Assembly: GCA_004193595.1 (NCBI GenBank)
Contig: RPGQ01000077.1
Location: 136,091 to 200,090, forward strand
DNA: 64,000 nt
Reading direction: 5' to 3'
DNA from: Desulfobacteraceae bacterium Eth-SRB2
GTDB lineage: Bacteria; Desulfobacterota; Desulfobacteria; Desulfobacterales; UBA11574
Position numbers and translations under genes: made by a program
Shown: one piece after another, positions 7,095 through 14,617 of the stretch
Position numbering within the stretch: position 1 is the first letter of the stretch
Layout of the letters: each line of letters opens with the position of its first letter
Notes under the pieces: generated by a model
What the model was told of the DNA's origin: nothing
What the model saw: only the letters and a program-made list of their open reading frames with translations
The model's database searches: none

Positions 7095-8408
7095 ATGAAA
7101 TTTCAGAATTACGTCAGAAATGAGTATGGCAAGTGTGATCTTCCGTCCAACACGATCGGAAAAATTAAAGACGGATTTCGGAAGTTGAATCTCAACGTTG
7201 AATACTCCCCCTTTCGAGTTTCAAACAACATTTATTGGGGACAGATATGGATTGATTCAATTCGGATCGTATGTAATGGAAAAGGTATTACCCCGGAGCT
7301 TGCGGAGGCCAGCGCGTACGCGGAACTGGCTGAACGCTTCAGCGCAGGATTGTTCTATCCGGTCTTTGAAGAACGCGTAAGGTTTAACATTCCTGCCCTT
7401 TACAATAAAGAGACCACCAGGTTCCTTAATTATGAATGGCTGCCTGGGTATGTAAATGCCCACCAGGATGAATTGAAAGACAGCACTCTGACAATAGAAG
7501 ACCTGCTGGCAAACGAAAGTCATCTGACAGGTACAGATATTGAGCATATCAAAAACAGTCGAATGGCCAGACATTGGGTTGACGGTTTTTCAATACTTCG
7601 TGAAAAAACCATAAAGGTTCCGGTCAATTTTGTTACCTATATTCATGCATCTAACGGGATGGCGGCGGGAAACACCATGGAAGAGGCCATGATTCAGGCC
7701 TCATGTGAAATATTTGAACGTCATGTCCAGATACAAATAATCAAACCTGAAAAAATAGTTCCGTCAATTGATCCGGATTCTGTGGACAATGTCGTGATAA
7801 AAGATATGATTAAATTCTATCAGGGAAAGAATGTCGATATAATAATCAAGGATTTTTCTCTGGGTGGCGTGTTGCCCTGCATTGGCGTCCTGTTTATCAA
7901 CCACAATTTGTCTCCGGATCGCCTGGAACATCGGATACTGATACCGGGGGTATCTTTCAATATGGACGAAGGGCTAACCCGGTGTTTTACGGAAAGCATG
8001 CAAGGCCGTGAAACGCTTTTGGCGCCCCGCCCGCAATTGGATAAACCGCTTGTCCATCGATCTCGGGTTAACAATTATTACCTGTTAATGAAATGTTGTA
8101 TTTCTCCAAAAGATATCTCATTTCTTGAGCAAGGAGAAATGGGTGCTTACAGGAACACCAAAACCAAGGATGTTTTCAGCGAGATTGAGGGACTTAAGAG
8201 AATATGTAAGCAGTTCAATACCGATTGTATCCTACTCAACCACACCCATCCGGTATTGAATTTTCCGGTAATAAGAGTAATTATCCCGAAGATTTCTGAC
8301 TTTTTACCTTTTTTGAGTCAAGATATTCTCGTATCTGAAGCAACAAGACCGTCCGCTACCTGGCGGGGCCAAAGATTCAGGAAGATCATGCAGAGTTTTT
8401 TTGCGTAA
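7095..8408 (+). CDS. YcaO-domain protein (ATP-dependent cyclodehydratase/thioamidation family)
   Basis: GKGITPELAEASAYAELAERFSAG, NGMAAGNTMEEAMIQASCEIFERH and C-terminal EATRPSATWRGQRF are YcaO-like. Confidence 0.85.
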   Translation: MKFQNYVRNEYGKCDLPSNTIGKIKDGFRKLNLNVEYSPFRVSNNIYWGQIWIDSIRIVCNGKGITPELAEASAYAELAERFSAGLFYPVFEERVRFNIPALYNKETTRFLNYEWLPGYVNAHQDELKDSTLTIEDLLANESHLTGTDIEHIKNSRMARHWVDGFSILREKTIKVPVNFVTYIHASNGMAAGNTMEEAMIQASCEIFERHVQIQIIKPEKIVPSIDPDSVDNVVIKDMIKFYQGKNVDIIIKDFSLGGVLPCIGVLFINHNLSPDRLEHRILIPGVSFNMDEGLTRCFTESMQGRETLLAPRPQLDKPLVHRSRVNNYYLLMKCCISPKDISFLEQGEMGAYRNTKTKDVFSEIEGLKRICKQFNTDCILLNHTHPVLNFPVIRVIIPKISDFLPFLSQDILVSEATRPSATWRGQRFRKIMQSFFA

Positions 8409-10240: not shown

Positions 10241-10909
10241 ATGAAAACCAAAACACGTTCTATCGAGCAGATTATAGAAGAGCAGGTGAAAAGATGGCAG
10301 ATTATGCGTACGGAAGAAAAAAAAGAGGAAGAACGTATTTCTGTCATAACCTTTTCCAGAGAGCACGGAAGTGGGGGAGACATTTTGGCCGAGCGTCTTG
10401 CCGAAAAACTGGGATACGAATTATTCCACCAGGAAGTCCTTCATAATATGGCCGAAAGTGCCCGTGTAAGTGTTCAATTCGTTGAAACGTTGGACGAAAA
10501 AGGTGTTTCAGTACTTGAAGAGTGGATATCCTCACTTGTAGACAATCGACATCTATGGCCGGATCAATATCTCCAGCATCTCATGAAGATCATCGGCACC
10601 ATCGGCAAACACGGCCAGGCGGTTATCATCGGCAGGGGTTCCAATTTTGTTCTGCCTCCTGACAAAAGACTCAGCATTCGAGTAATAGAGCCCATGGAGG
10701 AAAGAATACAAAATGTATCCAAAAAACTCGGAATTACTGTTGAAGAAGCAAAACAAAAGATCATAAAGACAGAATCGGATCGCAAAGCGTTTATAAGAAA
10801 ATACTTTAATGCCGATATCACGGACATATTTCATTACGATCTTATCATCAATACCGGAAGCCTAAGTTTAGACAAAGCCGTTAATGCCATAACCGGGGCC
10901 CTGAATTAA
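10241..10909 (+). CDS. Cytidylate kinase-like family protein
   Basis: VITFSREHGSGGDILAERLAEKLGYELFHQEVL...IIGRGSNFVL; start chosen after AAGGAGGGAAC. Confidence 0.85.
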   Translation: MKTKTRSIEQIIEEQVKRWQIMRTEEKKEEERISVITFSREHGSGGDILAERLAEKLGYELFHQEVLHNMAESARVSVQFVETLDEKGVSVLEEWISSLVDNRHLWPDQYLQHLMKIIGTIGKHGQAVIIGRGSNFVLPPDKRLSIRVIEPMEERIQNVSKKLGITVEEAKQKIIKTESDRKAFIRKYFNADITDIFHYDLIINTGSLSLDKAVNAITGALN

Positions 10910-10988: not shown

Positions 10989-11756
10989 TCAACCATATTT
11001 TGTATTAAATTTATCAATAATAAATAAAAACTCTTCAGGCAATCTTTTCCTGACATTTGAAATAATCTCACGGGGAATGTCTTGATAGTAAGCCTGGGCG
11101 ATCCCTCCTGCAATACAGGCTATGGTATCGCTGTCTCCACCCAAAGAGATAGCGTTACGGATTGCATCTTCATAATCTTTTGCTTCCAGAAAGGCAATAA
11201 TCGCCTCAGGCACAGAGCCCTGACAGGATATATCAAAGCCATAATCAGGCCTTATTTCGTCCAGGGTTCGGTTGAGATTGTAAGCAAATCGATCGCTTAT
11301 TTCCTGCTGGATGGTTGCTTTACTTTTGCCGGAACGGGCAAGGAGAACCGCCAGTGCTGTGGCCTGGGCGCCTTTTATCCCTTCAGGGTGGTTATGGGTT
11401 ACTTTCGCGCTTTCTCTGGCTTCGTGTAATACATCTTCCATGGAGTTAAAGGCAAAACCAACTGGGCTTACTCTCATAGCAGAACCATTTCCCCAGCTAT
11501 TATAAGGTTTGCTGTCCGCAGCGCAAATCCATCTGAAAAAGGAACCGCCGTAACCGGCGTTAGGGTATTTTTGTCCGAACGTTTTAAGAGAGGTTGCGTA
11601 ATCAACCTTTCTTAAAATTGAGTCGGCAATGGCCACAGTCAAAACGGTATCGTCGGTAAATCTTGAATAGGGACTGAAAAGAGGAAATTGGGTCGACTTC
11701 ACGGCATAGTGCTCAAAAATTGAACCGATAACATCTCCGGCAATCGCGCCGATCAT
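10989..11756 (-). CDS. ADP-ribosylglycohydrolase family protein
   Basis: MIGAIAGDVIGSIFEHYAVK, FTDDTVLTVAIADSIL, SLGGDSDTIACIAGGIAQAYY; start at the internal ATG because the ORF upstream lies in a repeat. Confidence 0.9.
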   Translation of the reverse strand: MIGAIAGDVIGSIFEHYAVKSTQFPLFSPYSRFTDDTVLTVAIADSILRKVDYATSLKTFGQKYPNAGYGGSFFRWICAADSKPYNSWGNGSAMRVSPVGFAFNSMEDVLHEARESAKVTHNHPEGIKGAQATALAVLLARSGKSKATIQQEISDRFAYNLNRTLDEIRPDYGFDISCQGSVPEAIIAFLEAKDYEDAIRNAISLGGDSDTIACIAGGIAQAYYQDIPREIISNVRKRLPEEFLFIIDKFNTKYG

Positions 11757-11771
11757 TTTTACCTCCCATGA

Positions 11772-11838
11772 TGAACCCGATGGCACAAATTGGCTGTCAT
11801 TAAAATACTTGCGATTTCGACAAATTGTAGAAATCTCC
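11772..11838 (+). repeat. Dispersed repeat (GAACyC...GGCACAAAxxGGyTGyCATTAAAA..CTTG.GATTT..AAxTTGTAGAAATyyCC), copy 1
   Basis: Aligns by eye with 19548-19625 and the 3' parts of 12260-12490 and 13118-13215. Confidence 0.6.
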
Positions 11839-11846
11839 GGATGTGA

Positions 11847-12206
11847 TTATTGGGTTACCAGACGATCCAGGATCAGCCCGTGAAAACTACCCTTGTCCGG
11901 CGAAGCAAAAAGCCATCCCAAATGTGTAAGGCACTGGATGCAAACGGCAATTCTCCAGCTAAAACCCGGAAACCAGCTAAAATCCGTTGAGGCCGGGCCC
12001 GCATGGCCGCATGCCTTAGCGGTTCTAAAACACCCAATTTCAAAAACTATTCCATGAGGGTTGGCAAAAGTGTGCCGGTGAGATCCCTGGACTTCTATGC
12101 GCTCGGCCGGACTCGTTATCCTGTTGCGGCATTGGCGGCAAAATATGTATTCCTCCCGGTCCGATTCTTTATCTTGGGTTTCATCCTCAACAAAGCTGTT
12201 AAGCAT
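11847..12206 (-). CDS. Stand-alone CULT-domain (cereblon-like) protein
   Basis: FCRQCRNRITSPAERIEVQGSHRHTFANPHGIVFEIGCFRTAKACGHAGPASTDFSWFPGFSWRIAVCIQCLTHLGWLFA...FHGLILDRLV: two CxxC zinc ligand pairs and the SWFPGxxW...HxGW tryptophan pattern of CULT domains. Confidence 0.85.
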   Translation of the reverse strand: MLNSFVEDETQDKESDREEYIFCRQCRNRITSPAERIEVQGSHRHTFANPHGIVFEIGCFRTAKACGHAGPASTDFSWFPGFSWRIAVCIQCLTHLGWLFASPDKGSFHGLILDRLVTQ

Positions 12207-12259
12207 TTCATCGCTCTGTTTTTCAGGCGGCACCCGAAAAAGATGGGGAGAACCGAACT

Positions 12260-12490
12260 TAGGGGCTCCGCCCCAATTGGAATAGTGGAATGATGGAGTA
12301 ATGGAATGATGGGTGAGCTTGTCCTGAACGAAGTTGAAGGAAAGAAGTTTTTTACAATTAAAATGGTTTATTTCCGCTCTTATTTCCAGTATTCCAACAT
12401 TCCAACATTCCAACATTCCATCCTGATTATATAAACAGGTTCCCATTAAATAACATTTAATTTTGAAAAGTTGTAGAATTTCCGAGACGC
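12260..12490. repeat. Composite repeat: GGAATGATGG-type inverted/tandem units plus ATAAACAGGTTCCCATTAAA...AAAAGTTGTAGAATTTCCGAGAC
   Basis: GGAATAGTGGAATGATGG opposing CATTCCAACATTCCAACATTCCA; 5' and 3' ends recur at 13118-13215. Confidence 0.65.
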
Positions 12491-12830
12491 TAAATTGACC
12501 GGTATCATTTTCTGCTTTCTTTCTGATTAGGCAAATAGAGGCGTCAGGGATTTTCCTCTTTAATTTAGGTTACCTTATTTCCGGATAGATTTCAACATGG
12601 GGTAATCTTTTTTGAACGGTCATCATACCCGGCTTGTTTTTAAAGAGTTTTTCTTTGTAAATTTCAAATTAAACAGCAATGAAAAACGCCCTTGAATATC
12701 TTACAATATTATAGTATATTTTATAATTTGTGTAACCACAAGATTATGATAGCGTAGAGTTTGTCGTTAGAGCTTAAGACGTTTTCAAGATTGTTTTTCC
12801 GGGTTTTAGAATACAGAGGCAATTTGAAAT

Positions 12831-13086: not shown

Positions 13087-13261
13087 TTGCCACAAAGGCA
13101 CAAAAACACAAAGGATGAACTCAGGGGCTTCGCCCCAATTGGAATGATGGAATGATGGTATAAACAGGCTCCATTAAAAAATCTGTAATTTCATAAAATT
13201 GTATAATTTCCGAGACACAAATTTATTAATATTTCTTCGTGCCTTTGTGTCTTAGTGGCAA
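13087..13261. repeat. Inverted-repeat element (TTGCCACAAAGGCACAAAAACACAAAGG ... CGTGCCTTTGTGTCTTAGTGGCAA)
   Basis: Terminal inverted repeats visible; contains a nested copy of the GGAATGATGG/ATAAACAGG repeat. Confidence 0.7.
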
Positions 13262-13306: not shown

Positions 13307-14617
13307 CTATTCTATCCCGGAATCAGGTAAGTTTAGGATCTGCGTGGTTTCTTCTGAAGGCAGCTCCTCCACAGCGCGCAGTTTCCGTTTCATTGCTCGA
13401 GTTCGTACTCCGGTCTGTTCTATGGTATTAGAGGCCGTATTTAACTGCCTTTTTACCGTTGTTAGAACATGGCCGAATTTCCCAAATTCCGTCTTGACTG
13501 CGGCAAGGACTTTCCAAACCTCACTCGATCGCTTCTCAATGGCCAATGTACGAAAGCCTATGCGCAAACTGCTCAGGATTGCCGAAAGCGTGGTTGGCCC
13601 GGCAACAACAATACGGTAATCCTGCTGAATCTTTTCGACCTGGCCCGGTTGGCGCAGGACTTCCGCGTAGAGTCCCTCCGTGGGGAGAAACATAATCGCA
13701 AAGTCTGTGGTGGCCGGAGGATTGAGATACTTATCCCGGATTTCTTTTGCAGAGCTGTGAACCGAGCGAAGGAGTGCCCCAGTCGCTTTTTGCACAGCAT
13801 CCCCGTCAGCAGTATCGGCGGCCTCCACAAGCCTGAGATAGTCCTCCTGAGGAAACTTTGAGTCGATGGGCATCCAGACGCAAGATTCCGGATCGTCGTC
13901 TTGACCGGGAAGCCGAATGGCGTACTCAACGCTTTCCTGAGAATCACTCCGGGTACGAACGTTTTTGTCGTATTGATCCGGGGTTAAAATCTGCTCTAAA
14001 AGTGCCCCCAGTTGGACTTCCCCCCAGGTCCCCCGCGCTTTAACGTTGGTGAGTACCTTTTTAAGGTCACCGACCCCTGTTGCCAGACTCTGCATCTCTC
14101 CAAGGCCGTGCTGGACAGCCTCAAGGCGATCGCTGACAAGTTTGAAAGATTGGCCGAGCCGTTTTTCAAGCGTACTTTGAAGTTTCTCGTCGACCGTCTC
14201 ACGCATCTGATCGAGTTTTTTCTCATTACTCTCCTGAAGATGCTTCAATTGTGTGTCAATTGTGCTTCGCAGTTTTTCGATTTCCCCTCGGTTCGATTCC
14301 GTCAGCTCCTGGATTCGCCTGGCAATTGATTCGAGTTGATGGTTTTGTGATTTACCCATTTCAGCAATAGTCCTGACCATTGTGTCCATGGACAGCTTTT
14401 GACCCGCAGAGACTTCTTCTCTAAAATTTTTCGCGGCCCCTGCTGATTCTTCTCGACCCAAACGCAGTTCCTCGCGGACCGCCTGTTCGACTCCTGTGCT
14501 TTTATTTGCTTTTAATTTTATCAAAACAAAGATCAACACCAACGCACTGATTGCCAGCAAAATGAAACGAGCCAATATAAGTAAATCAGTCACAATATAA
14601 AACCTCCGTGGTAACAT
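13307..14617 (-). CDS. rmuC: DNA recombination protein RmuC
   Basis: N-terminal TM, coiled coil, then GTWGEVQLGALLEQILTPDQYDKN, PIDSKFPQEDYLRL and FAIMFLPTEGLYAEVLR. Confidence 0.93.
   Translation of the reverse strand: MLPRRFYIVTDLLILARFILLAISALVLIFVLIKLKANKSTGVEQAVREELRLGREESAGAAKNFREEVSAGQKLSMDTMVRTIAEMGKSQNHQLESIARRIQELTESNRGEIEKLRSTIDTQLKHLQESNEKKLDQMRETVDEKLQSTLEKRLGQSFKLVSDRLEAVQHGLGEMQSLATGVGDLKKVLTNVKARGTWGEVQLGALLEQILTPDQYDKNVRTRSDSQESVEYAIRLPGQDDDPESCVWMPIDSKFPQEDYLRLVEAADTADGDAVQKATGALLRSVHSSAKEIRDKYLNPPATTDFAIMFLPTEGLYAEVLRQPGQVEKIQQDYRIVVAGPTTLSAILSSLRIGFRTLAIEKRSSEVWKVLAAVKTEFGKFGHVLTTVKRQLNTASNTIEQTGVRTRAMKRKLRAVEELPSEETTQILNLPDSGIE

Follow-up and report, generated by a model that had tools for sequence, protein, structure and literature searches.

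What is the native role of the bacterial relatives of cereblon, the protein through which targeted protein degradation is mainly achieved? The question is raised by an open reading frame (ORF) on the reverse strand of a 64,000-nucleotide stretch of Desulfobacteraceae bacterium Eth-SRB2 (contig RPGQ01000077.1, positions 136,091 to 200,090; hereafter the window), which a sequence-only reading had described as a stand-alone bacterial CULT, i.e. cereblon-type, protein. Here, we report that this ORF (hereafter the CULT ORF) encodes a CULT domain with its zinc site and aromatic cage, that its relatives carry a conserved motif ahead of the domain and that a repeat element has displaced the start of the gene in this genome. 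The interest of the locus lies as much in this newly noticed tail motif as in the native role of the family.

The ORF encodes a complete CULT domain

The CULT domain was defined by Lupas et al. (2015), who described a prokaryotic single-domain group that is mainly delta-proteobacterial (PMC4287342). The CULT ORF was correctly identified in the sequence-only reading and is an ordinary member of this known single-domain bacterial group (group I of Lupas et al. 2015). Its translation contains two CxxC pairs (C23/C26 and C89/C92), an NP motif (residues 49-50), the stretch SWFPGFSW with W78 and W84, and HLGW with W98; there is no second domain, although the relatives carry an N-terminal tail in addition to CULT (see below). 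A phmmer search initiated with the single sequence against the PDB retrieved MsCI4 of Magnetospirillum gryphiswaldense (MGR_0879, cereblon isoform 4; PDB identifier 4V2Y and others) with an E-value of 1.2e-21 and human cereblon with 2.5e-14. Using a profile of 17 sequences, MsCI4 was matched at 2e-33 and cereblon at 5e-20, with YPEL5 next at 0.23. The beta-tent fold of CULT is common to the Yippee and Mis18 domains (PF03226; PMC4287342), and Yippee-Mis18 is the sole Pfam match of the CULT ORF, but it is sub-threshold (E-value 0.015, 15.9 bits against a cut-off of 26.6), and YPEL5 is the only representative of that group brought up by the profile. NCBIfam holds no model for the protein, and a search of the open-access literature found no known function for bacterial CULT proteins.

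An AlphaFold model, generated from an alignment of 45 homologues, has a predicted local distance difference test score (pLDDT) of mostly 91-98 over the domain. The top 50 Foldseek matches of this model are all cereblon or MsCI4, and it superimposes on MsCI4 at about 1.1-1.2 Å and on the human cereblon domain at about 1.4 Å. MsrB, which the sequence-only reading had named as an alternative zinc fold, is rejected as no MsrB chain was found at E-values up to 1 with the profile or up to 10 with the single sequence; nor has any tryptophan of the cage been lost. The searches by sequence, by profile and by structure agree in assigning the ORF to the CULT family, and it almost certainly encodes a complete and genuine CULT domain.

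Both CxxC pairs and the tryptophan cage (W78, W84 and W98), already recognized from the translation, are invariant in alignments of 17 and of 45 diverse homologues. The three tryptophans align with W79, W85 and W99 of MsCI4 and with W380, W386 and W400 of human cereblon. MsCI4, to which the CULT ORF is 38-40% identical over about 100 residues, likewise has a single CULT domain with the zinc site, the three cage tryptophans and the NP motif, but its Tyr101 takes the place of Phe100 of the CULT ORF at the base of the cage. This Phe is equivalent to F402 in human cereblon and makes the cage one of the human kind; of 110 homologues, 78 share Phe at the base and 32 carry Tyr. The thalidomide-binding domain of human cereblon (CRBN) is the same domain with the same types of cage residues, at about 32-33% identity, whereas the CULT ORF is devoid of the LON domain and the DDB1-binding part. 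In MsCI4, these three tryptophans mediate the binding of both thalidomide and uridine (PMC8900816, PMC4449219), and human cereblon recognizes C-terminal cyclic imides via its CULT domain (PMC11974815). Given the identity of the pocket residues with those of MsCI4 and human cereblon, the protein very probably binds an imide- or uracil-type ligand.

A conserved motif ahead of the domain

The ORF delineated in the sequence-only reading is CULT coding sequence, but the ancestral gene probably did not start at its ATG at 12206. In the relatives, the protein starts farther upstream than the residue corresponding to this Met, and the conserved coding sequence SPHLFRVPPEKQSDE extends to about position 12251, with the native start of the relatives lying beyond an inserted repeat (see below). 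The relatives thereby gain roughly 29-55 N-terminal residues, a tail in which a motif with the consensus Phi-Phi-Phi-[RK]-x-P (Phi, hydrophobic residue) is joined to the CULT domain by an acidic linker. Examples of the motif are HLFRVPPEKQ, FFFRTPSDKR, YFLRQPSGKH and HLLRQPADRPG; in some relatives, the motif is directly at the terminus (MQLLLKEE, MITLFKEPEDK).

In a set of 80 homologues, filtered at 72% identity, Phi-Phi-[RK] is present in 58, as against a mean of 18 (maximum 30) in shuffled sequences, and the longer Phi-Phi-[RK]-x-P in 35, as against a mean of 2.2 (maximum 9), though shuffling leaves shared ancestry in these counts. The positions of the motif cluster 32-33 residues ahead of the first Cys. 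No mention of this tail with its motif and acidic linker, in which the relatives differ from MsCI4, was found in the literature examined, and the tail motif is newly noticed here. A divergent CULT group of the same phylum (loci L185-L190) retains the cage tryptophans, and most of its members have a GGNGAKAYQC-type start, not an LFRxP tail.

The linker between motif and domain is about 32% Asp and Glu. In AlphaFold models of two divergent homologues, its pLDDT is below 50, and a mean of 54-57 is reached over the ten N-terminal residues, where the motif is located. Hence, the models do not dock the motif on the domain with confidence, and the linker is apparently disordered in them. The ratio of nonsynonymous to synonymous substitution rates (dN/dS) among close relatives is about 0.4 for motif and linker versus 0.14 for the domain; as the sequences compared were chosen for having the motif, this ratio merely suggests that the segment is coding.

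A possible cyclic-imide reader and adaptor

The explanation that we find best overall, at somewhat less than an even chance, is that of a cytosolic cyclic-imide reader whose tail recruits a partner, possibly an AAA+ protease. The protein would be a cytosolic single-domain member of the bacterial cereblon-like group, whose pocket (W78, W84 and W98, with F100 at the base) would, by its residue identity, bind a cyclic-imide or uracil-like group. The bound group would most plausibly be an aspartimide or glutarimide that damage or cleavage has left at the C-terminus of a protein. With less confidence, we infer that the CULT domain could be the recognition half of an adaptor in Desulfobacterota, where the Phi-Phi-Phi-[RK]-x-P motif on its acidic, putatively disordered linker would recruit a partner, e.g. 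an AAA+ protease, the tail thereby standing in for the LON/DDB1 part of cereblon. The components of this proposal are not equally probable. Cyclic-imide reading as the native role is plausible though still tentative; a tail that tethers a protease is unlikely; and a bacterial equivalent of degradation via cereblon, in which a cyclic-imide adaptor delivers to an AAA+ protease via an N-terminal tether, is more doubtful still.

Among conceivable partners, an AAA+ protease would be the most economical one, as argued from the anatomy of the protein and from a working analogy with the SspB-type ClpXP adaptors. These likewise combine a domain for recognition of peptide ends, a flexible linker and a short hydrophobic/basic motif, and an SspB-type or SspB-derived peptide recruits ClpX from any position in the chain (PMC12373786). 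However, the fold of SspB is unrelated to CULT, the CULT motif is N-terminal and of a different sequence, and binding of CULT proteins to ClpX is suggested by analogy only. The genome encodes ClpX with a zinc-binding domain, and no SspB homologue was found in it. A split cereblon, with the LON N-domain encoded by a stand-alone gene, is rejected as both LON_substr_bdg matches of the genome, located elsewhere, fall in ORFs of 805 and 842 residues, the size of Lon protease.

Several observations weigh against an adaptor that reads cyclic imides. We know of no documented protease-binding peptide that is identical to Phi-Phi-Phi-[RK]-x-P, the motif counts contain the contribution of shared ancestry mentioned above, and the most divergent bacterial CULT proteins (L185-L190) are without the tail motif. 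Clustering of ORFs around about 113 non-identical CULT loci revealed no neighbor conserved beyond sub-lineages, and a crude motif scan of these loci detected no protease gene beside CULT. PIMT (PF01135), the family of the human enzyme that generates cyclic imides at C-termini, is uninformative, since it was matched in all 396 genomes of the phylum that were searched and so gives no co-occurrence signal with CULT.

The main rival to the cyclic-imide reader is a protein with an intramolecular lid that senses or buffers small molecules of the uracil type (uridine or other pyrimidine metabolites). It agrees with the binding of uridine and deoxyuridine by the MsCI4 cage (PMC4449219; PDB identifier 4v31), with the N-terminal extension of cereblon, which folds along the binding site (PMC4449219), and with the nature of the nearest conserved neighbor in the family, a cytidylate kinase-like gene. 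But the tail is not docked with confidence by AlphaFold, and the cytidylate kinase neighbor is seen in one family only and on the opposite strand; we hold a uracil sensor to be rather improbable, albeit a serious candidate.

A repeat element displaces the start of the gene

The sequence-only reading was right in remarking that the gene is flanked by repeats on both sides, because a remnant of the element found at the 5' end is also present at the 3' end. The displacement of the gene start by this element is a further point that emerged here. The element is roughly 200-250 bp in size, has 40 or more genomic copies as counted by search, and members of its family contain the inverted repeats GGAATGATGG / CATTCCAACATTCC. 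Alignment with element-free relatives reveals the native ATG and about 7 codons, followed by the element and then TTCTCCCCATCTTTTTCGGGTG. With the native start moved away by the insertion, the protein made in this genome may have an altered N-terminus, its tail being either missing or changed.

The same element is present at the same site of the CULT 5' end in a second species (L053/G015). Judging by synonymous divergence (dS) of the flanking genes, the window is nearer to L054 and L053 is nearest to L057, the two carriers of the element not being sisters. The shared site could reflect repeated insertion, an ancestral insertion with losses, or recombination.

These features permit a different reading, in which the gene is decaying in this genome, the insertion having removed its ribosome-binding site as well as the start codon, with the domain left as a recent remnant. 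The frame from the native ATG now spans 20 codons and terminates at a TAA inside the element, and no clear ribosome-binding site is apparent by eye before the in-frame starts, which include ATG 12446, GTG 12233 and ATG 12206. However, the domain is intact, with a dN/dS of 0.07-0.18 versus relatives and no key residue lost, the insertion at the same site is tolerated in the second species, and the CULT frame is open across most of the element both in this genome, from ATG 12446, and in L053. As the domain is still conserved, we do not call the gene a pseudogene and consider its decay improbable.

Distribution and genomic neighborhood

The CULT gene is present in 22 of 24 genomes of its own family, but has a scattered occurrence across the phylum (40 of 396 genomes sampled). 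A scan of contigs confirmed 472 relatives of the protein, and the named homologues are from Desulfobacterales and related metagenome-assembled genomes, Desulfosarcina cetonica and Desulfatitalea alkaliphila; by these relatives, the window falls within the delta-proteobacterial lineage in which the group is mainly found. At the sensitivity used, no CULT was found in IMG/VR or in phage and plasmid collections, and cargo of a phage or mobile element is rejected on this ground. This distribution is as expected for a resident gene of patchy occurrence that is passed on mostly vertically; it is conserved within the lineage, with no evidence of mobility. The features of the region are listed in Table 1.

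Table 1. Features at and around the CULT ORF (window coordinates)
Feature	Position	Strand	Remarks
CULT-domain ORF	11847..12206	(-)	119 aa counted from the ATG; Cys23 begins the domain proper
Cys23 codon (first of the zinc ligands; C23 and C26 in CRQC)	12138..12140	(-)	Invariant in two alignments; position computed from ORF start
Conserved N-terminal motif segment SPHLFRVPPEKQSDE	12207..12251	(-)	In frame with CULT, upstream of the start in the sequence-only reading; matches the N-terminus of relatives
Interspersed repeat with internal inverted repeats (miniature inverted-repeat transposable element-like)	12254..12496	.	Inserted near codon 8 of the ancestral ORF; splits native start codon from remainder of gene
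Remnant (about 50 bp) of the end of the same element	11797..11850	.	Overlaps CULT stop codon and bases 3' of the stop
Shorter copy of the same element family	13117..13224	.	
ADP-ribosylglycohydrolase (PF03747)	10989..11756	(-)	E-value 4.7e-38; same strand, downstream of CULT
Cytidylate kinase-like protein (PF13189)	10241..10909	(+)	Conserved convergent neighbor in family
RmuC family protein (PF02646)	13307..14617	(-)	Upstream neighbor in family
YcaO-domain protein (PF02624)	7095..8408		Near CULT region

The ADP-ribosylglycohydrolase gene, which the sequence-only reading had noted as a neighbor, indeed adjoins CULT here, but the adjacency is lineage-specific, being restricted to 7 loci from a few close genera, and the gene is not beside CULT in, for example, L053, L057, L058, L062 and L063 of the same family or in the other sub-lineages examined. 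A general association of the two genes is thus rejected, and their adjacency does not argue for a functional connection. Joint action of the two in the repair of proteins or nucleotides, which their common strand and spacing of within about 100 bp in the window might bring to mind, is very improbable in view of this restriction to close relatives. The adjacency of RmuC and cytidylate kinase is confined to the family of the window.

Other sub-lineages have neighbors of their own. At seven loci (L107, L108, L113, L114, L115, L124 and L130), the CULT gene is divergent from an asparagine-synthetase-like gene (PF00733/PF13537), beyond which lies a gene weakly similar to GCS2, a possible amidoligase; most of these loci also have a glutaredoxin-like gene. 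Amide chemistry is thus found beside an imide-binding domain in that sub-lineage, perhaps by coincidence. A protein of about 180 residues with no Pfam match is encoded on the same strand, as the first or second gene downstream of CULT, at 11 loci (L068, L074, L076, L081, L083, L085, L087, L089, L093, L095 and L128).

Implications

The conservation of the tail motif in Desulfobacterota renders the function of these CULT proteins, as degradation adaptors or otherwise, testable. The adaptor question also bears on the origin of the cyclic-imide pathway. If bacterial CULT proteins were indeed adaptors of AAA+ proteases, the substrate logic of cereblon would be older than its use in ubiquitin ligases.
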